NCBI GenBank assembly: GCA_902554355.1
Contig: CACDOC010000003.1
Location: 1 to 64,000, forward strand
Reading direction: 5' to 3'
Source of the DNA: an uncultured SAR86 cluster bacterium
GTDB taxonomy: Bacteria > Pseudomonadota > Gammaproteobacteria > Magnimaribacterales > Magnimaribacteraceae
Length of the DNA: 64,000 nucleotides
Shown: positions 43,006-64,000 of the stretch, piece after piece
Layout: each line of letters begins with the position of its first letter
How positions within the stretch are numbered: the stretch's first letter is position 1
The notes under the pieces: generated by a model
What the model saw: the letters and a program-made list of their open reading frames with translations, nothing else
Told to the model about the DNA's origin: nothing
Databases searched by the model: none
Made by a program: the position numbers and the translations under genes

Positions 43006-43054
43006 TGTCACACAAATGTCATATAAAAGACACATATGTGACAATTATGTGACA
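43006..43054. promoter_or_regulatory. Putative PHO-box array upstream of the 151-aa secreted protein
   Basis: Hexamers recur at exact 11-bp steps: TGTCAC (43006), TGTCAT (43017), AGACAC (43028) on the plus strand, then GTGACA at 43038 and 43049, which are TGTCAC on the minus strand, again 11 bp apart. 11-bp direct repeats of a TGTCA core are the hallmark of PhoB boxes. The array ends a few bases before the Shine-Dalgarno AAGGAG of the next gene. Confidence 0.75.
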
Positions 43055-45998: not shown

Positions 45999-46685
45999 AT
46001 GGCAAAACACATTTTAGTTGTTGAAGACGAACCTGATCTAAGAACTACTCTTGAATTTAATTTAAAGTCTGAAGGATATAAAGTTAAATCTGCTGCGGAT
46101 GGTGAAGCCGCAATTACTGAAATAGGAAAAAAAGTACCTGATCTTGTGCTTCTTGATTTAATGCTACCTGATATGTCGGGACTTGAAGTTTGTAAAAAAA
46201 TTAGAAATGAGTCTTTCAGCAATCAAGTCTTTATCATCATGTTGACTGCAAAGGGAGAAGAAGTAGATAGAGTTGTGGGATTTGAACTAGGTGCCGATGA
46301 CTATGTAGTCAAACCTTTTAGTGTTAGAGAGCTTATGTTACGAATTTCATCAATCTTAAAAAGAGGATCAGAAACAAATACTAGCAAAGAACAAATTTCT
46401 ATTGGTGATGTTGAAATTAATTTAGCTTCACATAGAGTTTTTATAAGTGGTCTTGAAATTGAACTTACTGCAAAAGAATTTGAATTACTCAAATACCTGG
46501 CGGAACGCAATGGAAGAATTCAAACCAGAGAGGTATTACTGGAACAAGTATGGGGTTATAACAATTCAGTAACGACTAGGACTGTGGACACTCATATTAA
46601 AAGACTTAGATCTAAAATCGGTGATGTTGGATCAAAAATAGAAACTGTAAGAGGTGTAGGTTATCGCTTTAATTACGTCGTATAA
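45999..46685 (+). CDS. phoB: PhoB-type response regulator
   Basis: 228 aa OmpR/PhoB family. The receiver domain has VVEDEPD acidic pair, phospho-acceptor Asp53 in LLLDLMLPDMSG, Thr83 and Lys105 in YVVKPFS. A C-terminal winged helix follows (about 130-225, ending VRGVGYRFNYV). With a PHO-box-like motif in front and the sensor next door, and phosphate genes all around, it is very likely PhoB. There is no Shine-Dalgarno. Only the family, not the name, is certain from the protein. Confidence 0.87.
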   Translation: MAKHILVVEDEPDLRTTLEFNLKSEGYKVKSAADGEAAITEIGKKVPDLVLLDLMLPDMSGLEVCKKIRNESFSNQVFIIMLTAKGEEVDRVVGFELGADDYVVKPFSVRELMLRISSILKRGSETNTSKEQISIGDVEINLASHRVFISGLEIELTAKEFELLKYLAERNGRIQTREVLLEQVWGYNNSVTTRTVDTHIKRLRSKIGDVGSKIETVRGVGYRFNYVV

Positions 46686-46692
46686 TCTATGA

Positions 46693-48426
46693 ATGGATAT
46701 TAGATGGAGGATCTTCTGGTCTACTTTTCTGCTTACATCGATGACTGTTCTCAGTCTAGGATATTTACTCTTAGAAAGAACAGGTGATTATTTATTAGAA
46801 CAATTAGACTCGGAGCTAACTTCTGAAGCGAAAGGTGCAATTTTTATACTTTCTAATCCAGAGTATGAAATTACCAGTTACCAAACACTTTCACGACAAC
46901 TCTCAGATGCATATGGCTTTAGAGTTTCTCTCATCAAATCAAACGGTGAAGTTGTAGGCGACTCAGATGTCGAAGAGGAAGATCTTAAGAAACTGGACAA
47001 TCACTACAATAGACCCGAAATTCAAGCAGCTATTTATAATAATATTGGAAAAGCAACTCGTTATAGTAATACCTTAAAAACAGATATGAGGTATCTCGCT
47101 TTAGCATCAAATAAAGCAGGAGAAATAAGCTTTGTTCGATTCGCCGTTCCATTATCTGAAATAGATGCCACATTACTGGTTCTGCAAAATTCTGTATATG
47201 GATTTTTGTTCGTATCCTTATTAATTGCTGTACTTTTAAGTTATTTATTGTCTAGATTTCTAACTCTTGAGTATATTGAATTAATATCAAGTGCCAGAAA
47301 ATTAGCTAAGACAAGTGGTATGAAGGGATCGAAAAGAGCTGCGGTAGAGCAGATAAGTTCTAATTTAATTGAAATTCAAGGGGCACTTAAAGAGGAATTC
47401 ACTGCTATTGCCAATGAAAGAAATCAGTTTGGGAATGCTCTTGAAGAAATGGGACAGGGTGTAATTTCGATTAACAAAAATGGAATAATAGAATTAACCA
47501 ACCCAGCTGCCAGTAAACTGTTAGGTGTAGATAACCTGTCTGCAGGAGATTCTTTTATGGAAAAGGTGTCAATATCTGGATTACAAGACCTAATAAAAGA
47601 AACTTCTTCTTCAGAGCCTGGGTTAGATGAGATCGAAATACACCAACCTTTTTATCGAGCTTTTATTGCTAGTGCTAGCTTTAATCCCGATACAGAAGAG
47701 TCGTTACTCGTATTTTCAGATATTACTAGAATAAAAAAACTAGAATCTGCGAGAAGTGACTTTATCGGTAATGTTTCTCATGAACTAAGAACACCTATTT
47801 CAGTGCTTCTAGCCTCTTCAGAAACTATTCTTAATGCAGATATAAAAAAGGAAAAAGATCTAAAACATTTTGTCAAAGCTATACACCGAAATGCTGAGAG
47901 ACTTAAAAGCTTAGTAGATGATCTTCTGCACTTATCGCGCATAGAGGGTGGCAGTCTTAACATGACTATCGAGAAGATAAATCTTGATTACATAGTCAAA
48001 TCAATCATATTGAATCTAGAGCAAGAAGCTCTTAAGAAGGGTATAAAAATCGAACCTCTGGTTGATAAAAGAATTGAAGTATTATCGGACTTCATTTCTT
48101 TAGATATAATTATTTCTAATTATTTAAATAACGCTATAGCTTATTCTCCGAGCAATTCAAAAATCTTAATTACTGCAGAAGATGCAGGTGGAAAAATAAG
48201 GTTATCTGTTAAGGATGAGGGAGAGGGTATTCCTGAAAAATATAAAGATAAAGTTTTTCAAAGATTTTTCAGAGTTGACAAAGGAAGGTCCCTGAACCAG
48301 GGTGGTACTGGGCTTGGGTTATCAATAGTCAAAAACCTAGCTTCAACTCTTTCCTGTCCATTTGGAGTTGAAAATCTAGAGCCCAATGGATCAAGTTTTT
48401 GGATAGAGCTAAATAAATCAACTTAA
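46693..48426 (+). CDS. phoR: PhoR-type sensor histidine kinase
   Basis: 577 aa. TM1 near 7-28, a periplasmic sensor of about 130 aa, TM2 near 165-190, then a linker and PAS domain (about 245-345). HisKA follows with His363 in GNVSHELRTPIS, and HATPase with NYLNNAIAYSP, DEGEGIP and GGTGLGLSIV. The large periplasmic and PAS regions resemble the longer PhoR layout rather than the short E. coli form. Downstream of the phoB-like gene by 7 bp. No pstSCAB or phoU is in the window, so how phosphate is sensed is open. Confidence 0.85.
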   Translation: MDIRWRIFWSTFLLTSMTVLSLGYLLLERTGDYLLEQLDSELTSEAKGAIFILSNPEYEITSYQTLSRQLSDAYGFRVSLIKSNGEVVGDSDVEEEDLKKLDNHYNRPEIQAAIYNNIGKATRYSNTLKTDMRYLALASNKAGEISFVRFAVPLSEIDATLLVLQNSVYGFLFVSLLIAVLLSYLLSRFLTLEYIELISSARKLAKTSGMKGSKRAAVEQISSNLIEIQGALKEEFTAIANERNQFGNALEEMGQGVISINKNGIIELTNPAASKLLGVDNLSAGDSFMEKVSISGLQDLIKETSSSEPGLDEIEIHQPFYRAFIASASFNPDTEESLLVFSDITRIKKLESARSDFIGNVSHELRTPISVLLASSETILNADIKKEKDLKHFVKAIHRNAERLKSLVDDLLHLSRIEGGSLNMTIEKINLDYIVKSIILNLEQEALKKGIKIEPLVDKRIEVLSDFISLDIIISNYLNNAIAYSPSNSKILITAEDAGGKIRLSVKDEGEGIPEKYKDKVFQRFFRVDKGRSLNQGGTGLGLSIVKNLASTLSCPFGVENLEPNGSSFWIELNKST

Positions 48427-49308
48427 ATTTTCGTTAAGATATTCATAAGCCAGGGCGTCACAAATTCCCCAATCTATTGCGAAAAGCTTATTTATATTAG
48501 AGTGTTCTAAAATAAAAGAAAAAATATCTGCAGCTGGAACTATTACATCTGCTCTATCTTCTGCAAGACCATAAAGATTTATTCGATCAACAACTGGCAT
48601 CTTAGATAAATTGATTCTGATCTTTTCAAATTTCTCTCGTTCTAAAGGATTGTATTTATCTATTTCAAGAATCTTAAAAATTCTCCTTATATTGCCACCG
48701 ATACCCACTAAAGCGTCTGCATTATTTTCTTTAAGTAAATTTAAAAAGGCTTTTAACTTTTCCCATTCTTTTATGCTATCTTTACCCTTCATTATTCTCA
48801 CAGCACCGAGATCAAATGATTCATACAACTCTTTGGAGGCATTGAGCATATAAATTTCTGTACTGCCTCCCCCAACATCAACATAGATTGGTTTATTCAG
48901 GTTTTCAATTTTTCTTGTATTCGCATTTCTTAGGCAATAGGCTTCTTGTTTACCACTTAATATACTAACGGATGTTTGACAGGCTTCTTCAATCTTGCTG
49001 CATATTTCACTTCCATTTAGTGCATTCCTGGTGGCCGATGTTGCACAGATTCCGGCCCATTTTATATTCCTTTTTTGTACTTTCTTAGAAAGTTTTTTAA
49101 GCTCCTCAATAATTCTTTTTTCTGATTTTTCTGAAATCCTATTTGTTTCAAATACATCTTGACCCAGCCTAAGATCAATTCTTTTAAAGGTATCTAACTC
49201 TAATGGGTACAGTTTTTTTGATCTTCTAATCCTAAATTGTTTGAACTTAATTGCATTTGATCCAATATCTACGGCAGCAATACGCTGGAAAGTTTTCTTT
49301 GATTTCAA
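48418..49308 (-). CDS. ppx: Ppx/GppA-family exopolyphosphatase
   Basis: 296 aa. The actin-fold phosphate motif opens with AAVDIGSNAIKFKQFRI, and VDVGGGSTEIYML is the second phosphate loop. At about 300 aa it has only the Ppx/GppA core and lacks the C-terminal extension of E. coli Ppx (513 aa), like minimal PPX2-type proteins. It degrades polyphosphate or pppGpp. Overlaps the PPK2 stop by 4 bp and converges with the phoR-like gene by 9 bp. Confidence 0.9.
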   Translation of the reverse strand: MKSKKTFQRIAAVDIGSNAIKFKQFRIRRSKKLYPLELDTFKRIDLRLGQDVFETNRISEKSEKRIIEELKKLSKKVQKRNIKWAGICATSATRNALNGSEICSKIEEACQTSVSILSGKQEAYCLRNANTRKIENLNKPIYVDVGGGSTEIYMLNASKELYESFDLGAVRIMKGKDSIKEWEKLKAFLNLLKENNADALVGIGGNIRRIFKILEIDKYNPLEREKFEKIRINLSKMPVVDRINLYGLAEDRADVIVPAADIFSFILEHSNINKLFAIDWGICDALAYEYLNENLS

Positions 49309-50144
49309 TTGGATTGATTTTGTATTAGTTTTTGTAACAATTTCAACTGCTGATATGTGAGACCAGTAAATTCAACACCTTTATGTTCTATTTTGTAGTT
49401 ATTTATACCTACATCCCATGTTTTGGGTTTGCTTAGTTTTTTTCCTTCATAGTCAATCTCATTTAAGAGATACCTTAAGGCTGTTAAGCGAGCAACCATT
49501 TTATTATTTGCATTAATTACAATCCAAGGACTTTGTTCATAGGATGTATTTGAGAACATTTGTTCTTTAAAAAAAGAGAATATCTCCCATTTGTCTGCCA
49601 TTCTTAAATCATTAGGACTCAGTTTCCAGAGTTTCAAAGGATCATTTTGCCTTTGTTTGATTCGTTTGCTTTGTTGTCTTTTTTCAATGGATAAATAGAA
49701 CTTAATCAAAATAAGGTCTTCTTCAATATATGATTTTTCCCATCTTACGACTTTGTTCATAAAATGGGTATATTGCCTTTTAGAGCAATAACCCATAGTT
49801 ATCTCGACAGTGGCCCTTGTGTACCAAGACCTATCAAAAAAAACTATTTCCCCTTTTTTTGGCATGTGTTTTTCATATCGTTTGAACCATTTTTTTGATT
49901 CATTTGGAGTTGGTATTCCTAAATGCACATACCTAAAATGATCAGGTATAAGATGTCTTGCTAGTAGATTGATTGTGTCAGTTTTTCCAGCGGTGTCTCT
50001 TCCTTCAAAAACAACAGCGATTTTTTTTTCTTCTTTAATTGCCCAATTTTGAAGCTTCAGAAACTCAATTTGCAGGCTTCTTTTTTCTTTTCTATAAATG
50101 TCAGAATTTAGTCTGTCATATTCGGAAACGTCGTAGTTGATCAT
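49305..50144 (-). CDS. ppk2: Polyphosphate kinase 2 family protein
   Basis: 279 aa. Walker A is FEGRDTAGKTD (48-56) and the lid/Walker B is VFFDRSWYTR (102-108). PPK2 enzymes transfer phosphate between polyphosphate and nucleoside phosphates; the direction favoured here is not readable. The Walker A carries Thr-Asp where many have Gly-Gly. Upstream of ppx in the same operon, divergent from the PiT transporter gene. Confidence 0.93.
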   Translation of the reverse strand: MINYDVSEYDRLNSDIYRKEKRSLQIEFLKLQNWAIKEEKKIAVVFEGRDTAGKTDTINLLARHLIPDHFRYVHLGIPTPNESKKWFKRYEKHMPKKGEIVFFDRSWYTRATVEITMGYCSKRQYTHFMNKVVRWEKSYIEEDLILIKFYLSIEKRQQSKRIKQRQNDPLKLWKLSPNDLRMADKWEIFSFFKEQMFSNTSYEQSPWIVINANNKMVARLTALRYLLNEIDYEGKKLSKPKTWDVGINNYKIEHKGVEFTGLTYQQLKLLQKLIQNQSN

Positions 50145-50255: not shown

Positions 50256-51485
50256 ATGATAATTGAATTCGCTCTTCCAATTTTAATTCTTACAGCCCTA
50301 GCCGGCTTGATAATGGCCTGGGGAATTGGTGCAAATGATGTTGCTAACGCAATGGGAACATCTGTAGGATCCGGCGCTATTACCCTTTCGACCGCTATCT
50401 TAATAGCCTGTATATTTGAATTCTCAGGAGCCTTTTTAGCTGGTGGAGAAGTAACCTCTACGGTTAGAAAAGGTATTCTAGATCCCTTATTATTTCAAGA
50501 TAATCCTGACCTGTTTGTGTTTGGAATGATATCAGCACTGCTAGCTGCTGGAACATGGCTTGTGGTTGCTACCTATTTTGGATGGCCTGTTTCAACTACC
50601 CACACCATAGTAGGAGGTATAGTCGGTTTTGGAATATTGGGATTATCATTTTCGGCAATAGATTGGGACACGATGTCAGATATAGCTTTAAGCTGGCTTC
50701 TCTCTCCCCTTATATCGGGGACTATATCTTTCTTCATATATCTATCTATAGACAAATTAATTTTAAGAAATAACAACCCAATTCAAATGGCACAAAGATA
50801 TGGCCCAATATATCTTTTCTTTGTTGCCTTTATTGTCAGTATGGTGACTTTTACCAAAGGACTTAAGCATATTGGTCTAGGTTTAGATTACACAGATAGC
50901 ATAATCTATTCATTTATCTTTGGTTTATTTATAACTTTCTTAGGCTTTGTATTTTTATCAAGACTAAGAAATAGTTCTATAGATCAAATTTTCGGAATAC
51001 TGATGGTATTCACAGCCTGCGTTATGGCGTTTGCCCACGGTTCTAATGACACTGCTAATGCGGTTGGGCCCGTAGCGGCAGTATTCTCAACTGTTATGAA
51101 TGAAGGTGTATCTAAGGAAGCGGCAGTATCAGCTTGGCTTCTACTTGGAGGAGGAGTGGGGATAGTTCTTGGTCTGGCTATGTGGGGTTATAGAGTTATT
51201 CAAACTATAGGAAAAGAAATTACTAAACTAACCCCTACGAGTGGTTTTGCTGCAGAACTAGCGGCTGCTACTACGGTTGTTATCGCATCCGGTAATGCCA
51301 TGCCCATTTCAACGACGCATACATTAGTCGGGGCGGTCTTTGGTGTTGGCTTAGCGATGTCTATTAAAGACTTAGATTTCAAAGTAGTTGGCAAGATAGT
51401 AGCCTCTTGGTTGACTACTGTTCCAGCAGGAGCAATTCTCTCAATGATTTTTCTAACACTATTTAGGTACTTATTCCAGATCTAA
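50256..51485 (+). CDS. pit: PiT-type inorganic phosphate transporter
   Basis: 409 aa, about ten membrane segments. Both PHO4 signatures are present: GANDVANAMGTSVGSGA near the N-terminus and AHGSNDTANAVGPVAAV mid-protein, related by internal duplication. A metal-phosphate/proton or sodium symporter of the inner membrane. Upstream lies TTTCACATAAT, a single weak PHO half-site, and a perfect TTGACA -35. It sits in the gap opposite ppk2. Confidence 0.95.
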   Translation: MIIEFALPILILTALAGLIMAWGIGANDVANAMGTSVGSGAITLSTAILIACIFEFSGAFLAGGEVTSTVRKGILDPLLFQDNPDLFVFGMISALLAAGTWLVVATYFGWPVSTTHTIVGGIVGFGILGLSFSAIDWDTMSDIALSWLLSPLISGTISFFIYLSIDKLILRNNNPIQMAQRYGPIYLFFVAFIVSMVTFTKGLKHIGLGLDYTDSIIYSFIFGLFITFLGFVFLSRLRNSSIDQIFGILMVFTACVMAFAHGSNDTANAVGPVAAVFSTVMNEGVSKEAAVSAWLLLGGGVGIVLGLAMWGYRVIQTIGKEITKLTPTSGFAAELAAATTVVIASGNAMPISTTHTLVGAVFGVGLAMSIKDLDFKVVGKIVASWLTTVPAGAILSMIFLTLFRYLFQI

Positions 51486-51497
51486 TCGTAACCAAAT

Positions 51498-51525
51498 TGT
51501 CACAAAGTGACATCATAATTGTCAC
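51498..51525 (+). promoter_or_regulatory. PHO-box-like motif before phytase-linked TonB receptor
   Basis: TGTCACAAAGTGACATCATAATTGTCAC. TGTCAC recurs at 22 bp (two 11-bp steps), and the first half forms a TGTCAC-AAA-GTGACA palindrome. CATAAT could serve as a -10. Almost identical to the phoB and gspD motifs. Confidence 0.75.
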
Positions 51526-51566: not shown

Positions 51567-54101
51567 ATGAAACGTCTGAGTTTTTTGTCGATTTTTTCTT
51601 TATCTCTTTCCCTTTTTGTACCCAACTTCGCATTTGCAGACGAAGATTCGTCGCAAGCCGATGAAGAAGTTGTAGTTGTAGGCTCCCTTGCTAGCTTAAG
51701 AAGTGCCCTCAACAAAAAAAGGGATTCTGATAAAAATGTTGGTGTCATTGATTCTGATGCCTTAGGAAATTTTGCCGACATTAACGTAGCTGAGTCCTTG
51801 AGGAGAATTTCTGGTATATCAGTTGAAAATGATCAAGGTGAAGGAAGATACGTAACTGTAAGAGGAATGAATGCTGATTTAAACGCTATGACTATAAATG
51901 GTGTCAGTACAGCTTCTCCTGAAGATAGAAGAGGAGTGATTTTAGATGGTGTTCCTACAGATCTTTTAGAATCTATGACAGTTTATAAGACACTTACTCC
52001 GAACTTAGATGCAGATACAATTGGAGGGGCTATAGATTTAGAAACAATTTCAGCATTTTCTTATGGACCTAATTTTACAAAATTTAAAGCTGAAACTTCT
52101 AGAAATGATCTTACCAAAGATAGCAGTAATCCTAAATTATCAGGCACATATACTACAGTTATTCCTCAAGAGAATGGAGATTTGGGAATTGCATTTGTCA
52201 TCAGCTCTCAAGAAAGACATATCATGGCAGATAACAATGAAACTGGCGGATGGGGATCTAATTATGTCAATGATGACTATGAAATGCGTTACTACGATCT
52301 CACAAGAGAAAGAGATGGGATAGTTCTGAATCTAGATTACGTCTCAAATTCAGGAAGTAAAACTTATTTACATGCTTTCCATAATGAATATGTAGATACT
52401 GAATATAGAGCAAAGTGGGAAGTTAGAGATGTAATGGAAGAGTACACACCAACTATATCTGGAACTGTAGCGACTTATGGGGCTTCTAGAATGGATACTG
52501 AAGGGAAAAATAGAACTGAAATTAGATCTATCGATAATTTAGCCATTGGTCATGAGACACAACTTGCAAATGGAAGCTTTTTAGAAGTTCAAGTATTTAG
52601 ATCTGAAGCAGAACAGGATGATACGGATAGATATAATTTGATATTTAGAAGTAAAGAGAAAGATGGTGTTACTACTTTAGATACTGCCAATCCTCAAAAA
52701 CCAGTTTTAGGACTCCCTTCTGAATTTTATGATGCCTCTACATTCCCAGGAAAGGCAGCAGAGCAAGAATATGCCCTTACTGAGGACGAAGAACAGGGCT
52801 TCAAAATTGATTACACCTACATGATCGGTGAAACAGTTGTCCAGACTGGACTAAAGTATAGACAAAGAGAAAAGATAAATAATTATCAATTCTGTGAGTA
52901 TAAGATGCCAAAGGATACTACATTGGGAGATTATGATTATCAAACAATAGGAAATTATTTAGCAAACACACACGGACCTGCTCCAACTTTTGAACAAGTT
53001 AAATCAATAGTAACAAATAATACTTCTGGAACAGTTACTTTCTCAGACGGTACTACCTGTCCTGGACCAGGTACTTACTTTAGAGGTATGGGTGGTGATG
53101 AAGAAGAAGAATCTATCCCAGCAGACTGGACAACAGAAGAAGACATCCTAGCCTTATATTTTATGGGTACGACTTTGTATGAAAACTCCACTTGGGTTTA
53201 TGGCATAAGATTTGAAGATACTGAAACTACTTACAAAGGTAAAAACTGGAATGATACTTATCTTGGAGATAATGAATTTGAAAATAACTACACCTTTGCA
53301 GCACCCTCTTTAAATATTAAATATGATATCTCAGATGATATGGTTCTTAGATTTGGTGCATTTAGATCACTTGTAAGACCTGGGTTTAAAGAATCAAGAG
53401 CTGGTGCAATTATCAATGTTGACGATAATGAAATAGAGGGTGGAAATCCGAATTTAGATCCTACCAAAGCCACTAATATCGATATTTCTTTTGAATACTA
53501 TATTGATGAGAATACTTTTTTTGGAGTGGGTGCTTTCTATAAAAAAATAGAAGATGCAATCGTAGAAGTTGAATCTCAAGACTTCAGCATGAGAGGATCA
53601 ACATGGGATATAGCTGAAACTTATATCAATGCAGATGATAGCAGCATCAATGGTTTAGAGTTTTCCTATCAAACAGCTTTTGATAACGGCTTTATTTTAG
53701 TTGCAAATTACACATATGCAGACGGAGAAACTGACTTACCTGCTGATGCTGCTGCAGGACAAAGGACTATCCCTTACTTTAAACAAGTAGAAAATACGTG
53801 GAATGTTTCTCTTGGGTATGACGAAGGTCCATGGGATATTAGATTGGCCGCAACATACAGAGATAATTATCTTGATGAAGTAGGGTCTAAGCCTCTTAAT
53901 GATCGTTATACAGATGATCATATGCAATTAGATTTAACAGCAAAATATAAAGTTAATGATTCTCTAAGACTAACGTTTGAAGCTATTAATTTGAATGATG
54001 AACCTGAGTACTATTACTTTGGTAATCCCTCAAGACTTTCTCAATATGATGAGTATGGAGCTACTTATGGAGTCGGATTTAGGTACATCTTGAATCAATA
54101 G
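51567..54101 (+). CDS. TonB-dependent receptor, phytate-ester type
   Basis: 844 aa outer-membrane receptor. Signal peptide MKRLSFLSIFSLSLSLFVPNFAFA, then a TonB box (DEEVVVVGSL). The plug follows (about 60-165, with VRGMNADLNAMTINGV), and then a 22-strand-type barrel ends in GVGFRYILNQ, with aromatic penultimate residues. A PHO-box-like motif and a terminator flank it. It is followed by a beta-propeller phytase gene, a pairing seen in other proteobacteria, so uptake of phytate or inositol phosphates is inferred. Confidence 0.9.
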   Translation: MKRLSFLSIFSLSLSLFVPNFAFADEDSSQADEEVVVVGSLASLRSALNKKRDSDKNVGVIDSDALGNFADINVAESLRRISGISVENDQGEGRYVTVRGMNADLNAMTINGVSTASPEDRRGVILDGVPTDLLESMTVYKTLTPNLDADTIGGAIDLETISAFSYGPNFTKFKAETSRNDLTKDSSNPKLSGTYTTVIPQENGDLGIAFVISSQERHIMADNNETGGWGSNYVNDDYEMRYYDLTRERDGIVLNLDYVSNSGSKTYLHAFHNEYVDTEYRAKWEVRDVMEEYTPTISGTVATYGASRMDTEGKNRTEIRSIDNLAIGHETQLANGSFLEVQVFRSEAEQDDTDRYNLIFRSKEKDGVTTLDTANPQKPVLGLPSEFYDASTFPGKAAEQEYALTEDEEQGFKIDYTYMIGETVVQTGLKYRQREKINNYQFCEYKMPKDTTLGDYDYQTIGNYLANTHGPAPTFEQVKSIVTNNTSGTVTFSDGTTCPGPGTYFRGMGGDEEEESIPADWTTEEDILALYFMGTTLYENSTWVYGIRFEDTETTYKGKNWNDTYLGDNEFENNYTFAAPSLNIKYDISDDMVLRFGAFRSLVRPGFKESRAGAIINVDDNEIEGGNPNLDPTKATNIDISFEYYIDENTFFGVGAFYKKIEDAIVEVESQDFSMRGSTWDIAETYINADDSSINGLEFSYQTAFDNGFILVANYTYADGETDLPADAAAGQRTIPYFKQVENTWNVSLGYDEGPWDIRLAATYRDNYLDEVGSKPLNDRYTDDHMQLDLTAKYKVNDSLRLTFEAINLNDEPEYYYFGNPSRLSQYDEYGATYGVGFRYILNQ

Positions 54102-54118
54102 ACAACTTTCTCTAACAT

Positions 54119-54150
54119 GAAACTCCTCAAAGAGAGGAGTTTCAGTTTTT
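54119..54150 (+). terminator. Rho-independent terminator after the receptor gene
   Basis: GAAACTCCTC, loop AAAGA, GAGGAGTTTC, then AGTTTTT. A 10-bp stem. The phytase gene 34 bp beyond thus may have its own promoter or be read through. Confidence 0.9.
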
Positions 54151-54176
54151 AAGTCTTAAATAACAAAAACCTTAAT

Positions 54177-55214
54177 ATGAAAAATACAATTTATTTACTT
54201 TTCTTCTTATCATTTACTGTAAGTGCCACTATCGAAGATCATAAAATTTATCCAATTTATGAAACTGAAGCAGTAAAAACATCGGGTGATGCTGCAGATG
54301 ACCCTGCATTTTGGTTAAACAAAAAAAATCCTGAAAAAAGTATAGTTTTGGGAACTGATAAAAAATCAGGTATTTATACTTACGACTTATCAGGTAAAAC
54401 ATTAGATTATTTTCCGATGGGACGGATTAATAATATTGATTTAAGAAACGATTACTTAATTCAAAATAGGACAGTCTCATTATTAGCTGGTACTAATCGA
54501 GACTTCAATAGAATAGATTTTCTGTTGATAGGATCAAATGGTAATGTTGCTGAGTATTTAGATAATTCTTTTCAGACTGAACTAACCTCTGTTTATGGTC
54601 TCTGTATGTTTAAAGATACAGATAATTCCAAAACTTTTGTATTTGTAACTGATGAAGAAAGTTTAGCAATATACCAATACGAAATTCAGACTTATACACC
54701 AATCTCAGCAAAATTGGTCAGAACAATACCTACTCAATCTGTATCTGAGGGCTGTGTAGTGGATGATGATTTGAAAATACTTTATTTTTCTCAAGAAGAT
54801 GAAAAATCTGGAATTTTCAAGACTACTGCATTGCCAGAAGATGGAAATATTGAAACGATAGATTTACTTAAACCATCAGGAAATATAACTGGTGATTCCG
54901 AAGGGCTGGCTTTAGTTAAATTACCCGATCAAACATTACTAATTTCATCCTCACAAGATTCTAATGAGTATCTAATTTATACAACCGGCACAGATGATCA
55001 GTACCTTGGTAAATTTACTATTGAAGCATCAACAATCGATGGAACAAGTGAAACAGATGGTATAGAGGCTTATTACGGGCCACTTAGCCCTCAATTTCCT
55101 TTAGGAATTTTTATAGCGCAAGATGATGTAAATCTTGATCAATACGGTGAACCAATAAATCAAAATTTCAAATTTTCTTCCCTGAAAGATGCTATAGATC
55201 CATTTATTAAATAG
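54177..55214 (+). CDS. Beta-propeller phytase (3-phytase-like)
   Basis: 345 aa. A signal peptide (MKNTIYLLFFLSFTVSA) is followed by DAADDPAFWLNKKNPEKS and GTDKKSGIYTYDLSGK, the recognisable N-terminal calcium/substrate motifs of beta-propeller phytases. It removes phosphate from phytate, outside the cytoplasm. Adjacent to the TonB receptor and a phosphate regulon. Length is close to the single-domain family form (about 350-380). Confidence 0.9.
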   Translation: MKNTIYLLFFLSFTVSATIEDHKIYPIYETEAVKTSGDAADDPAFWLNKKNPEKSIVLGTDKKSGIYTYDLSGKTLDYFPMGRINNIDLRNDYLIQNRTVSLLAGTNRDFNRIDFLLIGSNGNVAEYLDNSFQTELTSVYGLCMFKDTDNSKTFVFVTDEESLAIYQYEIQTYTPISAKLVRTIPTQSVSEGCVVDDDLKILYFSQEDEKSGIFKTTALPEDGNIETIDLLKPSGNITGDSEGLALVKLPDQTLLISSSQDSNEYLIYTTGTDDQYLGKFTIEASTIDGTSETDGIEAYYGPLSPQFPLGIFIAQDDVNLDQYGEPINQNFKFSSLKDAIDPFIK

Positions 55215-55891: not shown

Positions 55892-56557
55892 ATGAATAAA
55901 ATATTATTAAAGAAATTATTGGCTGAATTTGTGGGGACATGTTTTCTTGTAATGATTGTCGTTGGTTCTGGGATAATGGCTCAGAGCTTATCAACTGATC
56001 AGTTAAGTATTCTTCTAGCAAATACCATAGCAACTGGAGCAGGACTGACTGCATTAATTTGGATATTCATCTCAATTTCAGGAGCTCACTTCAATCCTGC
56101 GGTCAGTTTAATAATGTTTTTAAAGAAAGAGTTAACATTTAAGGAGTTTTCTTGTTTCAGTTGCGCCCAGTTTGTCGGAGGATTTTTTGGTGTAATTATA
56201 AGTAATATTATGTTTGGCATGGATCCAGTGCAGATTTCAGAAAACTCAAGAAGTGGATTGAATATATATTTTAGTGAATTGGTAGCTACATTTGGTCTTA
56301 TCATTACCATTCTCGGTGTAAGAAAATTAAGTACTCTTGCCATTGCACCAGCAGTAGGGTTATATATCTCAGCAGGTTATTGGTTTACATCTTCAACTTC
56401 CTTTGCAAATCCTGCAGTAACTTTTGCCAGAGGATTCAGCGATACCTTTACTGGTATCCATCCAGAGTTTATTTTATCTTTCATAATCTTTCAGATTATT
56501 GGTGCTTGTTTAGCAATGCTTTTTATGAGTTATGTGCAGAATGATGAAATTAAATAA
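55892..56557 (+). CDS. Aquaglyceroporin of the arsenic-resistance (AqpS) type
   Basis: 221 aa, six membrane segments with two NPA loops: GAHFNPAVS and SFANPAVTFARGFSDTF. The stretch YWFTSSTSFANPAVTFAR closely resembles the aquaporins found in arsenic operons (AqpS). Under phosphate stress, arsenate enters through phosphate transporters such as PiT, and a channel releasing arsenite or organoarsenical is a sensible match. No arsC or arsR lies nearby, so this is inference from the sequence type. Confidence 0.85.
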   Translation: MNKILLKKLLAEFVGTCFLVMIVVGSGIMAQSLSTDQLSILLANTIATGAGLTALIWIFISISGAHFNPAVSLIMFLKKELTFKEFSCFSCAQFVGGFFGVIISNIMFGMDPVQISENSRSGLNIYFSELVATFGLIITILGVRKLSTLAIAPAVGLYISAGYWFTSSTSFANPAVTFARGFSDTFTGIHPEFILSFIIFQIIGACLAMLFMSYVQNDEIK

Positions 56558-56640: not shown

Positions 56641-56689
56641 CATGGTACTTTGCCTTTTAATTAAATAATTTTTTTATAAGACACAATCA

Positions 56690-56717
56690 TTTCACATTCT
56701 AGAAAAGTAATTGTCAA
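56690..56717 (+). promoter_or_regulatory. PHO-box-like motif before the lipoprotein/receptor unit
   Basis: TTTCACATTC...TAATTGTCAA: TTTCAC and TGTCAA lie exactly 22 bp apart (56690, 56712), the same spacing as in the receptor and gspD motifs. The middle is degenerate, so this is the weakest of the five. Confidence 0.55.
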
Positions 56718-56761
56718 ATCGCTCAGGCCTAATACCCAGACTTAATTAGGAGGAGTTCATA

Positions 56762-59629
56762 ATGCTATTACGCTTTTTATCTATATTCAGTTTGTTTTTA
56801 ATTGTTTCTTGTGGAGGAGGTGGTGATACCTCAATAGATTCTCCAGGAGAACTTGGTCAGGTTTCAGCACCAACTGCTGCTGACCAACAAGTTGTAGTTG
56901 GTGGTTCTGTACTGACGGGAACTTGTCCTAGCTCATCAAACATTGATGTTGACGACAGTATTGGTGGTAACACTGTCTGTGCAATATCAGGCACCATAAC
57001 TGGTGATCTTACGTTAACTGATGATGTAATTTATAGATTAAGCGGCACAGTTAATGTGGGTGCCGACATGGGAGGAGATGGAACAAAAGCTGGAGGTTCA
57101 GCTGGTGTTTTGAACATTCCTGCGGGAGTAACCATTGTTTCAAAAACTTCTGCTGATTATCTTGTTGTTCAGAGAGGTTCGAAGATTGAAGCTAAAGGAA
57201 CAGCATCAAAACCAATTGTCTTCACTCACTCTTCTGTTTTAGATGGTTCACTTACAAATCCAGATACAGCTAGTGGTCTCTGGGGTGGATTGGTTATCTT
57301 AGGTAAGGCACCTATTAATAAATGTTCTAATGATGTTCGAGGTACCGCAAGTTGTGAAAAACTCGTTGAAGGAGCAACAGATGCTCTGATGGGTGGAGCA
57401 ACTCCAAATGATAATTCAGGAACATTAAGATTTGTTAGGGTTGAATATGCTGGTTATGAAATATTTCCAGGTAACGAATTAAATGGAATCACTTTTGGTG
57501 GTGTAGGTTCAGGAACTACCGTTGATTATGTTCAAGTTCACAATAATCAGGATGATTGTGTTGAGTTTTTTGGCGGCACTGTAAACGTTACTCATTTGGT
57601 TTGTACAGGTGCTGGAGACGATAACCTTGATATTGATTGGGGTTATACAGGCAAGATGCAGTACGTTGTAGTTAAACAATCTAGAGGTGCCGGAGATCAC
57701 ATTGTTGAATCAGATAATACGAATGCTGATGCATCAGTCGGATATTTAACTACTCCAAGATCTCAACCAAAAATTGCAAACTTTACTTTCCTTTCAACCG
57801 GTAGAGACGAAGCTCTAAAATATAAAGAAGGTGTATCCGGTATGTATATGAATGGTATTGTTGTCAGTTCTGGTGATAAAGGTTGTATTGAACATACCAA
57901 GGCAGAAACACTCCAAGACGCACCTGGTTATGACAAAATTGCTCATCATTCAGTCTTCATGGATTGTGGAACTGGTGGTGTTTATAATGCAGGAGACGAT
58001 TCTGCCACAGTAGCAGAATTACAAGCTTCTATTGAATCTAGAGCTACTAACCTAGTTACTGACAAAACTAATACATTGGTTGGTCAGATGTTCTTGGGAA
58101 CTAACGAATCTGGTGTTGTTTCGGCATTTACTAATCAAACAGCTGTTTGTGCAGTTGGATCTCATGCAAGTGGAACTTCAACCTTGTGTCCAAGTGACGC
58201 AACTCAAATTGATGGTTTTTTCGCTAAAACAAACTATGTTGGTGCTTTCGCTCCAGGATCTGATGAAGACAACAACTGGGCAGCAGGATGGACTAAAGGT
58301 CTTTTTACTGCACCAGAATGTCCAGTCGGAACTTTTGAATCTGAGCAACTAGAAGGTAAAAAAGTCTGCAGTGTTCAGGGAACCTTAACAAGTGATGTCA
58401 CCTTAACAAGAGGCAACTTCTACAAGCTTGTAGGAAAAGTTCAAGTTGGTGAAGACATGGGTGGCGATGGAACAAAAGATGGTGGAGCCAGTGCTACTTT
58501 AACAATAGAGCCCGGAGTTACTGTATTTGGTGAATCTGGATCTGATTATTTAATCGTAATGAGAGGTTCTAAATTAATGGCTAATGGTACAAAATCTGCA
58601 CCAATTATCATGACTGGTAGAGATGATGTTACAGGACAAGCTACTCAGTTTTCTAGAGGTTTATGGGGTGGGTTAGTTTTACTTGGCCAAGCTCCGATAA
58701 ACAAATGCTCTAATGATGTCCGAGGTACCGCTGCTTGTGAAAAAGTAGTTGAAGGTTCATCCGATGCACTTATGGGCGGAAACACTCCTGACGACTCAAG
58801 TGGATCACTAAAATATTTAAGAGTTCAGTATGCTGGATATGAAATATTTCCAGGTAACGAATTGAATGGAATCACTTTTGGTGGTGTAGGTTCAGGAACT
58901 ACTGTTGAATACGTTCAGGTTCATAATAATCAAGACGATTGTGTAGAATTCTTCGGCGGTACGGTTAATGTCAAATACTTAATCTGTACAGGTGCTGGAG
59001 ACGATAACCTTGATATTGATTGGGGTTACCAAGGGAAGCTACAATTTGTAATTGTTAAACAATCATCTGATGCGGGTGATCATATTGTAGAATCTGATAA
59101 CACCAATGCCGATGCATCTGTTGGTTATTTAACAGAGCCTAGATCTCAACCAATTATTTCAAACTTTACTTTTATCAGTAATGGTAAAGATGATGTTATC
59201 AAGCTTAAAGAAGGTGTTTCAGGAATTTATACAAATGGTATTGTCATAGATGCATCTAATAGTAAGGCCTGTATTGAAACCACTAAAGCTGAAACTTTCC
59301 AAGACGCTGCAACAACGCCAAAGGTTACATTTAACTCAGTAGCATTTGATTGTAAGGCGTTAGCAGCACTGGGTGATGACGCAGGAACACTTGCTCAAGC
59401 TGAAGCTTTAATAACTGTAGGAAGTAATAACCTTTACTCTGTAGATTCTGGTGGAGGTTCATACGTTCCAACAGTTTCAGGAGTAATTAATGGTACAGCT
59501 GAAAATGCAATGACGGTAGCTGATAAATCAGCAGATGCATTCTTTACAACTACTGATTACGTAGGGGCTGTAAAAGATTCTACTGATACTTGGTATAAAG
59601 ATTGGACTGTTTCTGGAAGCTTAAATTAA
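56762..59629 (+). CDS. Surface lipoprotein with duplicated beta-helix-like halves (ElpS-like)
   Basis: 955 aa. The signal ends in LFLIVSCGGGGD, a lipobox, so the protein is lipidated; +2 is Gly. Two similar halves of about 460 aa follow, each rich in strand-turn repeats such as NNQDDCVEFFGGTVN and GAGDDNLDIDWGY, consistent with a right-handed parallel beta-helix. It is followed 25 bp later by a TonB receptor, then GspC and GspD. Caulobacter has a phosphate-starvation lipoprotein, ElpS, sent to the surface by a type II system; the gene order here is reminiscent, though I cannot run the comparison. Upstream Shine-Dalgarno TTAGGAGGAG is strong. Confidence 0.82.
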   Translation: MLLRFLSIFSLFLIVSCGGGGDTSIDSPGELGQVSAPTAADQQVVVGGSVLTGTCPSSSNIDVDDSIGGNTVCAISGTITGDLTLTDDVIYRLSGTVNVGADMGGDGTKAGGSAGVLNIPAGVTIVSKTSADYLVVQRGSKIEAKGTASKPIVFTHSSVLDGSLTNPDTASGLWGGLVILGKAPINKCSNDVRGTASCEKLVEGATDALMGGATPNDNSGTLRFVRVEYAGYEIFPGNELNGITFGGVGSGTTVDYVQVHNNQDDCVEFFGGTVNVTHLVCTGAGDDNLDIDWGYTGKMQYVVVKQSRGAGDHIVESDNTNADASVGYLTTPRSQPKIANFTFLSTGRDEALKYKEGVSGMYMNGIVVSSGDKGCIEHTKAETLQDAPGYDKIAHHSVFMDCGTGGVYNAGDDSATVAELQASIESRATNLVTDKTNTLVGQMFLGTNESGVVSAFTNQTAVCAVGSHASGTSTLCPSDATQIDGFFAKTNYVGAFAPGSDEDNNWAAGWTKGLFTAPECPVGTFESEQLEGKKVCSVQGTLTSDVTLTRGNFYKLVGKVQVGEDMGGDGTKDGGASATLTIEPGVTVFGESGSDYLIVMRGSKLMANGTKSAPIIMTGRDDVTGQATQFSRGLWGGLVLLGQAPINKCSNDVRGTAACEKVVEGSSDALMGGNTPDDSSGSLKYLRVQYAGYEIFPGNELNGITFGGVGSGTTVEYVQVHNNQDDCVEFFGGTVNVKYLICTGAGDDNLDIDWGYQGKLQFVIVKQSSDAGDHIVESDNTNADASVGYLTEPRSQPIISNFTFISNGKDDVIKLKEGVSGIYTNGIVIDASNSKACIETTKAETFQDAATTPKVTFNSVAFDCKALAALGDDAGTLAQAEALITVGSNNLYSVDSGGGSYVPTVSGVINGTAENAMTVADKSADAFFTTTDYVGAVKDSTDTWYKDWTVSGSLN
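56910..59625 (+). repeat. 1383-bp tandem internal duplication in the lipoprotein gene
   Basis: Segments match at a fixed offset of 1383 bp (461 codons). For example CCAGGTAACGAATT recurs with its flanks at 57467 and 58850, and ACAGGTGCTGGAGACGATAA in the two halves. Some stretches are nearly identical at DNA level while others differ, which suggests duplication followed by patchy gene conversion. Confidence 0.85.
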
Positions 59630-59654
59630 TCAAGGGTAATAATAGGAGTTACTA

Positions 59655-62258
59655 ATGAAAATATTATCAAGTAAAAAGTTTGGCTTAACGACTCTTTTGC
59701 CCTTGTTACTACTTACCTCTTCAATTTCTGCAGATGAAGTTGATGAGGTGGTAGTCAGCGGATACTTCATTCCAGACGAAAAGAGAGATACCACAGAAAT
59801 AAATGTGGTTTTAGATAGTACTGCAATAGAAAGGACTGGCGATGACAACATAGCAGTTGCATTAACTAGACTTACTGGTCTAAGTTTAGTTAGAGGTAAA
59901 TATGTCTACGTTAGAGGCTTGGGGGAAAGATATTCTGCTGCCACACTCAATGGCGGTGTTTTACCAAGCCCTGAACCGCTTAAAAGAGTTGTTCCATTAG
60001 ATCTTTTTCCAACTGAGGCGATTGAATCAGCTATTGTTCAAAAAACATACTCCGCAGATATGAATGGTGAATTTGGTGGCGGTATGATTGCAATTAAAAC
60101 AAAAGCAGTTCCTTCAGAAAGAATTGCATCTTTATCGTTATCCACGGGTTACAACACAAATCATAAAGAAGATGGTCTTCTTTATGATGGCGGTGGAGAT
60201 GATGACTGGGGCTATGATGATGGTATCAGAGATTATCCAGCTTCAGTCGCAAGTGCAATTGCTGCTGGTAAAAAAATTGATCGATCTAATTTTGAACCAT
60301 ATCAACTAGCTAATATGGCTAGAGAATTTGAAAACTCTAAACTATGGGTGATACAAAAGGGCAATGTTCCTGCTAATGGTTCATTCAATGTAACCTATGG
60401 CAATCAACTTGATTGGGATCTTGGCAATGACCTTTCATCTGGATTTCTATTAACAGCAGGAGTTAAATCTTCTTGGCAAACTCAAGAAGGTTTAAGGCAA
60501 ACTGGAGACTTGCAAGCTAATTCAGACGGAACTGTATCTGTAATCAAGGCCGAAGATAAAACATTTATGTCTACGTCTAATGATGCTACAACTTATGGAA
60601 TGGGTGTCTTTGGAGTTGAATCGGATTCTGCAGAGGTAAAATTGACTTCCCTATACATCCACAAAGGCACTAAAGAAGCAAGATCTATAACTGGATATGA
60701 TCCAAGTGATGCTGCTGATGTACGTGAAGATTATACTGAGTTTTTTGAAAGAACTTTGCGCAATAATCAGCTAAGTTTTGATAAGATTTTTCAAAATGAA
60801 ATTACTTTGAATGGAAGAGTATCTTTCGGAACGGCAAGTCGTAATGCACCTTATGAAAGATCTGTTTTTTATGAAGATAGTGATAATGACGGTATATTTT
60901 TATACGATGTTAACACAGGAAGAAATCAAACTCAGTTCAGTAGTGTAGACGATGATGTTTTTAATATCGGTTTAGATCTAACGCTTCCCGTTGAAACTGA
61001 TACCGCTGATTTAATCTTTAAAATTGGGTTAGATCAGAAAGTGAATGATAGGGAGGCTGAAGTTAGAAGCTACAGATTTTTAGCTGCTGGTGGACCTCTC
61101 CCCGATGATTTACTTGGAAAAAGAGTTGATTATATATTTGCTGATCAGAACCTTGATCCAAATAGACTTTATGTGATTGAAAATACTGGTTCTTCATCAC
61201 CTGCTGGATACGAAGGTGAGCTTGAAACTGACGCTTATTATGCATCTGTTGAAGCGTTGATCTCTGATCAATTTAGGATCTCTGCTGGAGCTAGATACGA
61301 AGACGGAACACAGGAAATTAATACCTATGATCTTTTTACTGGTAAAGACAACTCGATAGATAAAACAATTGATGAAGATTATATTCTTCCTAGCCTAACG
61401 TTTACATATCTACCTGAGAATTATGAAAATCTTCAAATCAGATTTGGTTACTCTGAAACTATTGCTAGGCCAACATTCAGAGAATTGTCACCTACACTAT
61501 TTGTAGACGTAGATACTGATAGGGTGATAGCTGGATCTTTATATCTTGAAAATTCAGAGATTGAAAATTTCGACCTCAGACTTGAATATTATTTTGATCA
61601 AAATCAATTTTTAACGCTTGGTGCTTTTTATAAAGAGATTGATAAACCAATTGAAGAATCTGTAACAGAAATTGGAGACTTGGTAATTACTTCATACCAA
61701 AACGTACCTTTAGCTGAAATAAGCGGTTTTGAATTTGAATTTGAGAGAATTTTTGACGGTTTTGAATCATCTTGGTTTGCAAGTAAAGAACTGTTAGTAA
61801 AAGTAAACTACACTTTCACTAACTCTGAAATTGTAATCGGAGAAGGAGATACGTTTGTTAATTTAGTGGGCGTGACCGAATTAGCTTCAAGCTTATTAGC
61901 TAATGGTAGGGACGATAGATTACAGGGTCAATCTGATAATATTCTTAATTTTCAAATTGGCTTCAATGATTTCATTGCAAATTCTCAAGGTACCCTAATT
62001 TTTAACTATGTTGATGATAGGGTTAGGGCAAGAGGAATTGATGTTTTACCAGATATCATAGAGGAAGTACCAACAACTCTTGATTTTGTTTACTCACGAA
62101 ATTTTGATGTTGATGACCTGGAGAACACTTTAAAACTATCATTGGAGATTCGAAATATTTTAGATGAGTCCTATGAGGCAACTGTTGCTGATAATATTTT
62201 CTATGATCAGTATGATTTAGGTAGATCCTTCTCATTGGGATTAAAATATGAGTTCTAA
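59655..62258 (+). CDS. TonB-dependent receptor, lipoprotein-linked
   Basis: 867 aa. Signal peptide MKILSSKKFGLTTLLPLLLLTSSISA, TonB box VDEVVVSGY, and plug with VRGLGERYSAATLNGGVLPS and PLDLFPTEAIESAIVQKTYSADM. The barrel ends in the aromatic FSLGLKYEF. It differs clearly from the first receptor: RGLGERYS and PSPEPLKR are typical of the branch that accompanies parallel-beta-helix lipoproteins. Translationally near the lipoprotein gene (25 bp) with its own Shine-Dalgarno (TAGGAG). Substrate unknown, perhaps a phosphorus compound. Confidence 0.92.
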   Translation: MKILSSKKFGLTTLLPLLLLTSSISADEVDEVVVSGYFIPDEKRDTTEINVVLDSTAIERTGDDNIAVALTRLTGLSLVRGKYVYVRGLGERYSAATLNGGVLPSPEPLKRVVPLDLFPTEAIESAIVQKTYSADMNGEFGGGMIAIKTKAVPSERIASLSLSTGYNTNHKEDGLLYDGGGDDDWGYDDGIRDYPASVASAIAAGKKIDRSNFEPYQLANMAREFENSKLWVIQKGNVPANGSFNVTYGNQLDWDLGNDLSSGFLLTAGVKSSWQTQEGLRQTGDLQANSDGTVSVIKAEDKTFMSTSNDATTYGMGVFGVESDSAEVKLTSLYIHKGTKEARSITGYDPSDAADVREDYTEFFERTLRNNQLSFDKIFQNEITLNGRVSFGTASRNAPYERSVFYEDSDNDGIFLYDVNTGRNQTQFSSVDDDVFNIGLDLTLPVETDTADLIFKIGLDQKVNDREAEVRSYRFLAAGGPLPDDLLGKRVDYIFADQNLDPNRLYVIENTGSSSPAGYEGELETDAYYASVEALISDQFRISAGARYEDGTQEINTYDLFTGKDNSIDKTIDEDYILPSLTFTYLPENYENLQIRFGYSETIARPTFRELSPTLFVDVDTDRVIAGSLYLENSEIENFDLRLEYYFDQNQFLTLGAFYKEIDKPIEESVTEIGDLVITSYQNVPLAEISGFEFEFERIFDGFESSWFASKELLVKVNYTFTNSEIVIGEGDTFVNLVGVTELASSLLANGRDDRLQGQSDNILNFQIGFNDFIANSQGTLIFNYVDDRVRARGIDVLPDIIEEVPTTLDFVYSRNFDVDDLENTLKLSLEIRNILDESYEATVADNIFYDQYDLGRSFSLGLKYEF

Positions 62259-62273
62259 TTCTATTTATTACTT

Positions 62274-62301
62274 TAAAATGGGCTCTACAGAGCCCATTTT
62301 A
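62274..62301 (+). terminator. Rho-independent terminator after the second receptor
   Basis: TAAAATGGGCTC, loop TACA, GAGCCCATTTTA. A perfect 12-bp stem ending just 5 bp before the gspC ATG, so gspC either reads through it or uses a promoter inside it. Confidence 0.85.
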
Positions 62302-62306
62302 TTATT

Positions 62307-62699
62307 ATGGAAAATTTCAACATAGCTAAGAAAATAATTTTTTATTGTTTAGTTTGCTTTGTTTTAGTTGCATTGATATATCAACTTTTTTTAATATTTA
62401 ATGCACCAACGTTTCAAAAAACATCTCCCATAAATGTTTCAGCTACTATTAATAATAATTTAAACTCAAATTATAGTAATCAAACTGCAACTCAGTTAAC
62501 CAATGATGAATTTCCTTATAAAGTCGTTGGTTATAGGGCGGGAGAAAAAAATAGTTCAGTTGTACTTAGAAAAGCTGATGTCGATTATGTTGTTCAGCAA
62601 GGTGAACTGATTGAAAATACCTATAGACTAATTTCTGTTAGTAAAAATGAGATAGTATTTGATAGAGCAGGAAAACAGATGTACATCAAAATAGATTAA
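62307..62699 (+). CDS. gspC: GspC-like type II secretion inner-membrane protein
   Basis: 130 aa. One N-terminal membrane segment (about 9-32), a low-complexity linker rich in Asn/Ser/Thr, then the homology-region domain YKVVGYRAGEKNSSVVLRKADVDYVVQQGELI. It lacks the PDZ domain or coiled coil of larger GspC, so it is a short form. GspC bridges the inner-membrane platform and the GspD secretin. Directly upstream of gspD, which confirms the call. Confidence 0.82.
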   Translation: MENFNIAKKIIFYCLVCFVLVALIYQLFLIFNAPTFQKTSPINVSATINNNLNSNYSNQTATQLTNDEFPYKVVGYRAGEKNSSVVLRKADVDYVVQQGELIENTYRLISVSKNEIVFDRAGKQMYIKID

Positions 62700-62764
62700 G
62701 AATATCTCCTTTATTTTCAACAACTTATTTCTGATCTAGTAAAAACACAAATTTGTAACATAAA

Positions 62765-62792
62765 TTTCACAAAGTGACAGCACAATTGTCAC
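62765..62792 (+). promoter_or_regulatory. PHO-box-like motif before gspD
   Basis: TTTCACAAAGTGACAGCACAATTGTCAC. TTTCAC and TGTCAC are 22 bp apart, and the sequence matches the receptor motif at most positions. It suggests that the secretion genes themselves answer to phosphate. Confidence 0.75.
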
Positions 62793-62823
62793 TAGATCAC
62801 CTCAGAATGTCGTTCATTCAAAA

Positions 62824-64000
62824 ATGACTAAAAAATTAATAATCTTTGCTTTACTGATCCCTTTTTTTATTGGTGCAGAAGACACTTATATTCTTAATTA
62901 TGATGACGTTGATATAAAAAAAGTTACACAAGATGTCGCAAGCTTTTCCAATAAGACATTAATCCTCGATCCGAAAGTGAAGGGAAGAGTTTCTATCTTT
63001 TCAGATACTATTCTTACATCTCAACAAGTTTGGGAGGTATATTTAAGAACTATTCAGGTTAGTGGTTTCTCTGCAGTCTCCGACGGTAATATTGTCCGAA
63101 TTGTGTCTGAAAACGACGCTACTCGCGATGAAACTGATATTTCTAATGATGGCGACTTTTCTACAAAGATTATCCCATTAGTTAATCGATCTGCTGGGGG
63201 TATTTTGCCCATGCTCAAACCAATTACTGGTAGGCAATCATATTTATCCAGTATTCCCTCCGTCAATTCCATATTGATTGTTGATAAATTATCAAATGTA
63301 CAGAGGATTGAAACCTTGGTAGATCAATTAGATAAAGATAATTCTGCTCAAATTTCTATTATTAAACTTGATAATTTATCTTCAATTGAAGCAGTAAGAA
63401 TTTTAGAGCGTCTAAAATTACAAGAAAATCCAACCATTAATAATTTTATAGCTGTGCCATTTCCGACTTCCAATTCAGTGATTCTTTCAGCAAATAACTT
63501 TGTAACAAATAATATAACTAAAACTTTACAGGCACTAGATAAAGATGCTTTGAACGATAGTTCTGTTGCAGTTATCTATTTAAAATTTGCTAAAGCTGAC
63601 GAAGTTTCTGCAATACTAAATACTGTTTCATCACGTTTTACTAACTCAGAATCATCTGAAAAACCTGTAGTTACTTTCCACGAGAAAACTAATTCCATTA
63701 TTGTATCAACCGAGCAAGCTAATTTAGATGTAATACGTAATCTCATATCCAAACTTGATATTAGAAGAGCACAGGTATTGGTTGAGGCGATTATTGTAGA
63801 ATTATCTGAGACCGCTGCAAAATCACTAGGAGTAGAAACTGTTTTTGCAGGAGGTGAGGAAGGTGATGTACCCTTGGCCATCACTAGGTTTCAAGATTCA
63901 AATTCACCTGATTTATTAGCTTTAGCTGGTTCAGCTGCTGAGTCGGGAGATGATGTAACTCTTAGAAATATTGGTGCTTCATCGTTACTTAATACTCAAG
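62824..64000 (+). CDS. gspD: GspD type II secretion secretin, N-terminal part (cut by window edge; not in ORF track)
   Basis: 392 codons are visible from the ATG at 62824 and the frame is open to the end. A signal peptide (MTKKLIIFALLIPFFIGA) is followed by N0 (YILNYDDVDIKKVTQDVASFSNKTL...), N1 to N3 ring modules (TKIIPLVNRSAGGILPMLKPI, ISIIKLDNLSSIEAVRILERL, VAVIYLKFAKADEVSAIL), then the start of the secretin domain at RRAQVLVEAIIVELSE. This is the outer-membrane channel of type II secretion. Remaining gsp genes should lie beyond the window. Confidence 0.93.
   Translation, partial: MTKKLIIFALLIPFFIGAEDTYILNYDDVDIKKVTQDVASFSNKTLILDPKVKGRVSIFSDTILTSQQVWEVYLRTIQVSGFSAVSDGNIVRIVSENDATRDETDISNDGDFSTKIIPLVNRSAGGILPMLKPITGRQSYLSSIPSVNSILIVDKLSNVQRIETLVDQLDKDNSAQISIIKLDNLSSIEAVRILERLKLQENPTINNFIAVPFPTSNSVILSANNFVTNNITKTLQALDKDALNDSSVAVIYLKFAKADEVSAILNTVSSRFTNSESSEKPVVTFHEKTNSIIVSTEQANLDVIRNLISKLDIRRAQVLVEAIIVELSETAAKSLGVETVFAGGEEGDVPLAITRFQDSNSPDLLALAGSAAESGDDVTLRNIGASSLLNTQ

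Follow-up and report, generated by a model that had tools for sequence, protein, structure and literature searches.

A probable ElpS-type surface unit for phosphate starvation in a SAR86-cluster bacterium, carried by a segment that seems to have displaced the phosphate locus typical of its genus

We analysed bases 1-64000 of an 85,465-base contig (hereafter the window) and found on its plus strand, in this order, genes for a lipoprotein (56762-59629), a TonB-dependent receptor (59655-62258), gspC (62307-62699) and gspD (from 62824), the same row that an earlier sequence-only reading of this DNA had described. We interpret these genes, with a probability of roughly 0.8, as an ElpS-type phosphate-starvation surface unit lying on a segment that seems to have replaced the phosphate locus usual for the genus. 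The bacterium is small, AT-rich and marine, and near-identical family members in named Alteromonadales assign it to the class Gammaproteobacteria. The contig belongs to a metagenome-type assembly of 1.17 Mb in 61 contigs, which is 51% complete. Units of this kind are already known, and the unexpected part is the apparent exchange of the segment.

The lipoprotein is 955 aa long, comprises two tandem repeats (about 56900-58309 and 58310-59626) and starts with a lipoprotein signal peptide (...FLIVSC; MLLRFLSIFSLFLIVSC-GGGG), in which Cys17 was assigned as the lipobox cysteine by reading. No family model in Pfam or NCBIfam matched the protein and a sequence search of solved structures returned no relative. 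The sequence-only reading had suspected a resemblance to ElpS of Caulobacter and named an alignment as the way to check it; aligned with a Caulobacter-type ElpS orthologue, the protein shows 36% identity over 429 aa (E 3e-65) and is, at the level of sequence, a real ElpS homologue. The orthologue is termed Caulobacter-type by inference from its lipobox (LAGC at 17-20, Cys20), its gene order and its nearest named relative, a Caulobacteraceae record at 68% identity; its gene is followed by those for the receptor, GspC and gspD-G onward, with the prepilin peptidase on the opposite strand. In Caulobacter, cc0170 encodes ElpS (lipobox LAGC at 17-20) and cc0171 the receptor, followed by gspC-N (PMC2996285). 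Reported there as well are induction of ElpS by phosphate starvation, extra phosphatase activity in supernatants, and expression of the receptor gene independently of elpS in both rich and poor media (PMC2996285). The receptor of the window (TBDT2, 867 aa) carries a Plug domain (PF07715, E 5e-7), resembles the TonB-Xanth-Caul subfamily with a match to TIGR01782 that stays under the cut-off, and is 33.6% identical to the receptor beside the Caulobacter-type orthologue.

The two repeats of the lipoprotein are 59% identical to each other. A single scan of about 85,000 species genomes, of which the best 80 loci were kept, showed that lipoproteins of one repeat (about 500 aa) and of two repeats (about 900-990 aa) both exist in the family; since 23 of these best 80 named loci encode proteins of >800 aa, the two-repeat lipoprotein is common and not a novelty of the window. 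The AlphaFold model (mean pLDDT 79.9) shows two domains built of many short strands, and the top Foldseek matches are beta-helix proteins, namely a PL6 alginate lyase (E 2.8e-4), a GH55 glucanase, tailspikes and pectate lyases, with low whole-chain TM-scores, as a two-domain query would give. The protein is therefore predicted from the model to consist of two beta-helix repeats. An alignment of 21 two-repeat proteins shows no variation at the acidic residues 264, 265, 268, 286, 287 and 290 or at the corresponding positions of repeat 2. As the two acidic groups are 22 residues apart, approximately one beta-helix turn, they could stack, and the stacked groups may form a metal or catalytic site.

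The gsp genes continue without a break beyond the end of the window. GspD (62824 to contig base 64665) scores 439 bits against the NCBIfam GspD model (TIGR02517, cut-off 351) and is followed by gspE, F, G, H, I, J, K, L, M and an A24 prepilin peptidase gene, which ends at 72464. GspD, E, F and G (TIGR02517, T2SSE, T2SSF, T2SSG) as well as GspJ, K and the prepilin peptidase (T2SSJ, T2SSK_1st and A24 peptidase domains) lie above their cut-offs. For GspC, H, I, L and M the assignment draws mainly on position and weak similarity: the 130-aa GspC by position and homology to gspC of relatives, with a T2SSC match of E 0.18 only, and H and I by an N-methylation motif only; L and M match no profile in this operon, while the protein at the M position of a relative passes T2SSM. 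No gspN was found on the contig read to 72464. The type II secretion (T2SS) operon, which had been named for inspection together with the ElpS alignment, is, going by profile matches and gene positions together, complete from C to M with the prepilin peptidase, and without gspN.

The sequence-only reading had further taken ElpS to be exported by the type II system, and one may suppose that the adjacent T2SS carries the lipoprotein to the surface as a substrate. The proximity of the gsp genes to the lipoprotein gene speaks for this, and some lipoproteins are indeed T2SS substrates. Many relatives, however, possess the lipoprotein with no gsp genes nearby, and the genome of one of them (G037, 97% complete) lacks a secretin altogether. 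In Caulobacter, moreover, deletion of gspC-N leaves surface ElpS unchanged and stops only its release, which probably proceeds via a secreted protease (PMC2996285), so that the T2SS serves there in release and not in surface placement. We consider it improbable that the T2SS places the lipoprotein of the window.

Regulatory sites were scored with a matrix based on 59 sites bound by PhoB in E. coli (PMC10294691 Table 1). This ChIP-derived matrix replaced a simple consensus, TGTCA-N6-TGTCA with ≤2 mismatches, which had no discriminating power (54 matches vs 59 expected). Ranks 1 and 2 in the window go to two PHO boxes of 19.9 and 19.8 bits on both strands at 43006-43054, before a gene for an apparently exported 151-aa protein of no known family (orf43069, 43069-43524), behind which PlcP- and Agt-like genes follow, and rank 3 (16.3 bits) goes to CGTAACCAAATTGTCACA on the plus strand at 51487-51504, before a receptor-phytase gene pair. 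Before gspD we found a plus-strand array at 62743-62771, whose best unit TGTAACATAAATTTCACA (62754-62771, 12.9 bits) comes 5th among the roughly 128,000 positions scored in the window and sits in a block identical across 3 relatives, in which the surrounding DNA varies; the proposal that the secretion genes have a PHO box of their own is supported by this site. An inverted repeat before gspD, GTGACA-N7-TGTCAC, was considered as a non-PHO element and rejected, a similar pattern being present just downstream of the best box of the receptor-phytase pair; the repeat more probably belongs to the PHO array. For the lipoprotein gene a PHO-box-like site had been placed at 56690. The best site, AGACACAATCATTTCACA on the plus strand at 56679-56696, lies a few bases from there and is nearly conserved in 3 relatives, but is weak by itself (9.2 bits, rank 18, region P about 0.05).

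The signal is much clearer for the family as a whole. Across 105 ElpS-family upstream regions the median best score was 15.3, compared to 4.9 for dinucleotide shuffles and 2.0 for upstream regions of other genes at the same loci (Mann-Whitney P 2e-48), and in 91 of the 105 the best site reads towards the gene (binomial P 5e-15); both P values are inflated by sequence relatedness, and the control regions include coding DNA. The strand bias and the excess over shuffles are not explained by base composition. In most of the SAR86-like relatives scanned, the top intergenic PhoB sites precede the genes for the lipoprotein, the receptor paired with phytase, orf43069, a porin or a PhoU-like protein. 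For Caulobacter, the T2SS has been reported to lie within the PhoB regulon (PMC11208175).

The lipoprotein-receptor-gsp unit is surrounded by further phosphate-related genes. On the plus strand these are genes for a metallophosphoesterase (43673-44470) and a glycosyltransferase (44467-45468), PlcP-like and Agt-like as judged from domains and context, phoB (45999-46685; best NCBIfam match PhoB TIGR02154, under the equivalog cut-off), phoR (46693-48426; best matches the PnpS/PhoR models, likewise under their equivalog cut-offs), a pit-type phosphate transporter gene (50256-51485, PF01384), and the pair formed by a second TonB-dependent receptor (TBDT1, 51567-54101) and a phytase (54177-55214, PF02333). 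The minus strand carries a ppx-like polyphosphate gene (48418-49308) and the polyphosphate gene ppk2 (49305-50144). An aquaporin gene (55892-56557) lies near the unit. Relatives in several families of the same order carry these phosphate genes in linkage too. At four loci from other families of the order (L040, L041, L044, L045) the aquaporin gene adjoins a gene for a small look-alike of ArsC-type arsenate reductase or low-molecular-weight phosphatase; this pair may possibly serve arsenite export, countering arsenate taken up in phosphate starvation. Two relatives (L034, 6049-8562, and L046, 4023-6536) contain an additional TonB-dependent receptor gene between the SRAP gene and the aquaporin gene, which is not found in the window.

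Both the modelled fold, close to structures of alginate lyase, glucanase and pectate lyase, and the likeness of the receptor to the TonB-Xanth-Caul subfamily would also suit a polysaccharide uptake pair, which scavenges carbon and whose link to phosphate is mere neighbourhood. Such a pair would leave unexplained that PHO boxes occur family-wide, that phoBR, pit and ppk2 are linked to lipoprotein and receptor in several families, and that ElpS (PMC2996285) and its Flavobacterium relatives (PMC8115612) are induced specifically by lack of phosphate. We regard carbon scavenging as a rather remote explanation and favour phosphate starvation as the setting of the unit.

The arrangement of lipoprotein and receptor is not confined to this bacterium. 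Of the best 80 loci kept from the genome scan, 78 named ones extend far enough to place the receptor gene, and in 70 of these it follows directly downstream of the lipoprotein gene; gsp genes are close by in 24 of the 59 with 7 kb on either side. Lipoprotein and receptor occur across Pseudomonadota, and T2SS adjacency is frequent without being a rule: in many Alteromonadales, and in relatives such as G037, the pair stands without the T2SS. Two Xanthomonas loci (L103, L141) show phoR/phoB, lipoprotein, receptor and gspD-G in order. The same arrangement was reported earlier in Xanthomonas campestris, a gammaproteobacterium (PMC2996285), so that the gammaproteobacterial version proposed by the sequence-only reading is not new. 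At L103, from Xanthomonas arboricola, the lipoprotein is in two pieces (308 and 255 aa), possibly due to a broken gene or a sequencing error. In two other genera of the family of the window (L221 in G006, L222 in G011) the T2SS operon stands directly beside pit and PhoU-like genes and no lipoprotein gene is present; the link between T2SS and phosphate is therefore independent of the lipoprotein.

Identity profiles along the contig revealed a 30.5 kb segment of another genus type, extending from about 42240 to about 72740, with 42240-64000 within the window. It carries phoBR, ppx/ppk2, pit, phytase, the PlcP/Agt-like genes, lipoprotein, TBDT2 and the T2SS. Compared to genus g6, a related genus of the same family, the contig shows about 62-79% identity left of about 42240, 88-99.8% within the segment and about 65-81% beyond about 72740. 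To a genome of its own genus (G005) identity is mostly 80-100% outside the segment and low or absent inside, and over contig bases 18000-21000 identity is 78-82% with own-genus genomes, against 68-71% with g6. We considered that the whole contig had been misbinned and dismissed this, since its flanks fit the genus of the genome. Six members of g6 (one a fragment) have a lipoprotein 98-100% identical to that of the window, whereas 5 genomes of its own genus have none. At the corresponding position G005 carries phoB, a shorter phoR, a porin gene, a PhoU-like gene, pit, SRAP and the aquaporin gene, and its phosphate locus is without lipoprotein, TBDT2 and T2SS. No family genome in which both were sought contained the PhoU-like gene together with the lipoprotein gene. 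A secretin was found in 4 of the 6 genomes of the two genera with the lipoprotein, as opposed to 0 of 19 without it; in the two secretin-less lipoprotein genomes the lipoprotein gene is on a short contig or cut by the contig end.

Alternatively, the assembly may have joined two co-occurring populations into a chimeric segment, and the genome itself would then be without the unit. The metagenome-type assembly (51% complete, 61 contigs) and the sharp switch of identity at both ends speak for this. On the other hand, a chimera requires two independent joins at syntenic positions. The left junction falls inside a TauD-like gene that is intact, the right one after the last gsp gene, and identity within the segment is patchy. 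Near the junctions (≤400 bases away) the parental types share exact matches of at most 14 and 17 bases, which disfavours a simple assembly join; the actual parents are not among the genomes compared. Even with a chimera the unit as such would stand, since genomes from several families contain it, among them one that consists of a single contig. We hold a chimera to be unlikely, less so than the two alternatives weighed above. The sequence comparisons suggest instead that the whole phosphate-starvation locus was exchanged by recombination with a related genus, an assembly artefact being less likely. Whether the phosphate-starvation programme of SAR86-like bacteria is one exchangeable allele at a single locus, swapped between genera via recombination in the flanking genes, we judge to be an even bet; if so, a cell would switch its phosphate strategy in one event. 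We found no report of this phosphate island in SAR86 in the open-access literature.

Taken together, we propose that upon exhaustion of phosphate PhoB would turn on the whole set. The lipoprotein would lie on the outer surface over the receptor and bind or trim phosphorus-bearing polymers, and the receptor would import the product released. The T2SS, which would not be required to place the lipoprotein on the surface, may secrete hydrolases and perhaps, by analogy with Caulobacter, also a protease that sheds the lipoprotein. The segment coding for these functions would have replaced the usual phosphate locus of the genus by recombination with a related genus. The analysis connects PHO boxes across Pseudomonadota with a widespread, uncharacterised pair of lipoprotein and receptor, and it puts a full T2SS under probable PHO-box control in very small marine bacterial genomes. 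If the swap is true, phosphate scavenging moves between marine lineages as one cassette, and its spread would bear on which bacteria can inhabit phosphate-poor water.

Among known systems, the ElpS (cc0170)-cc0171-gspC..N locus of Caulobacter crescentus agrees with the window in homologous genes and their order, and in phosphate control, which for the window is predicted from PHO boxes. It differs in that the window has two tandem repeats in the lipoprotein, no gspN, a PHO box of its own before gspD, the prepilin peptidase inside the operon instead of on the opposite strand, and phoBR, phytase and lipid genes close by. The Xanthomonas loci differ from the window by the one-repeat lipoprotein of L141 and the plant-associated genus. 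In Flavobacterium (PMC8115612), the FI/FII/FIII lipoproteins and the PUSIII/PUSIV clusters likewise combine ElpS-related lipoproteins with a TonB-dependent transporter, one cluster with phoBR, and are strongly induced by phosphate depletion; when phosphate is missing, these lipoproteins rank among the exoproteins of highest abundance, and a pair of receptor and phytase resembling 51567-55214 of the window is induced too. In contrast to the window, these clusters belong to Bacteroidetes, and no T2SS was seen beside them in the passages covered. SusCD/PusCD systems share with the window the outline of a surface lipoprotein and a TonB-dependent transporter, but a Pfam search found no SusD-type domain in the window lipoprotein, which is modelled as a beta-helix. 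Finally, PlcP-Agt lipid remodelling clusters are described from marine bacteria, with PlcP reported in SAR86 (PMC4796936); the window resembles them in having a metallophosphoesterase and a glycosyltransferase gene behind PHO boxes, assigned here by domains and neighbourhood.
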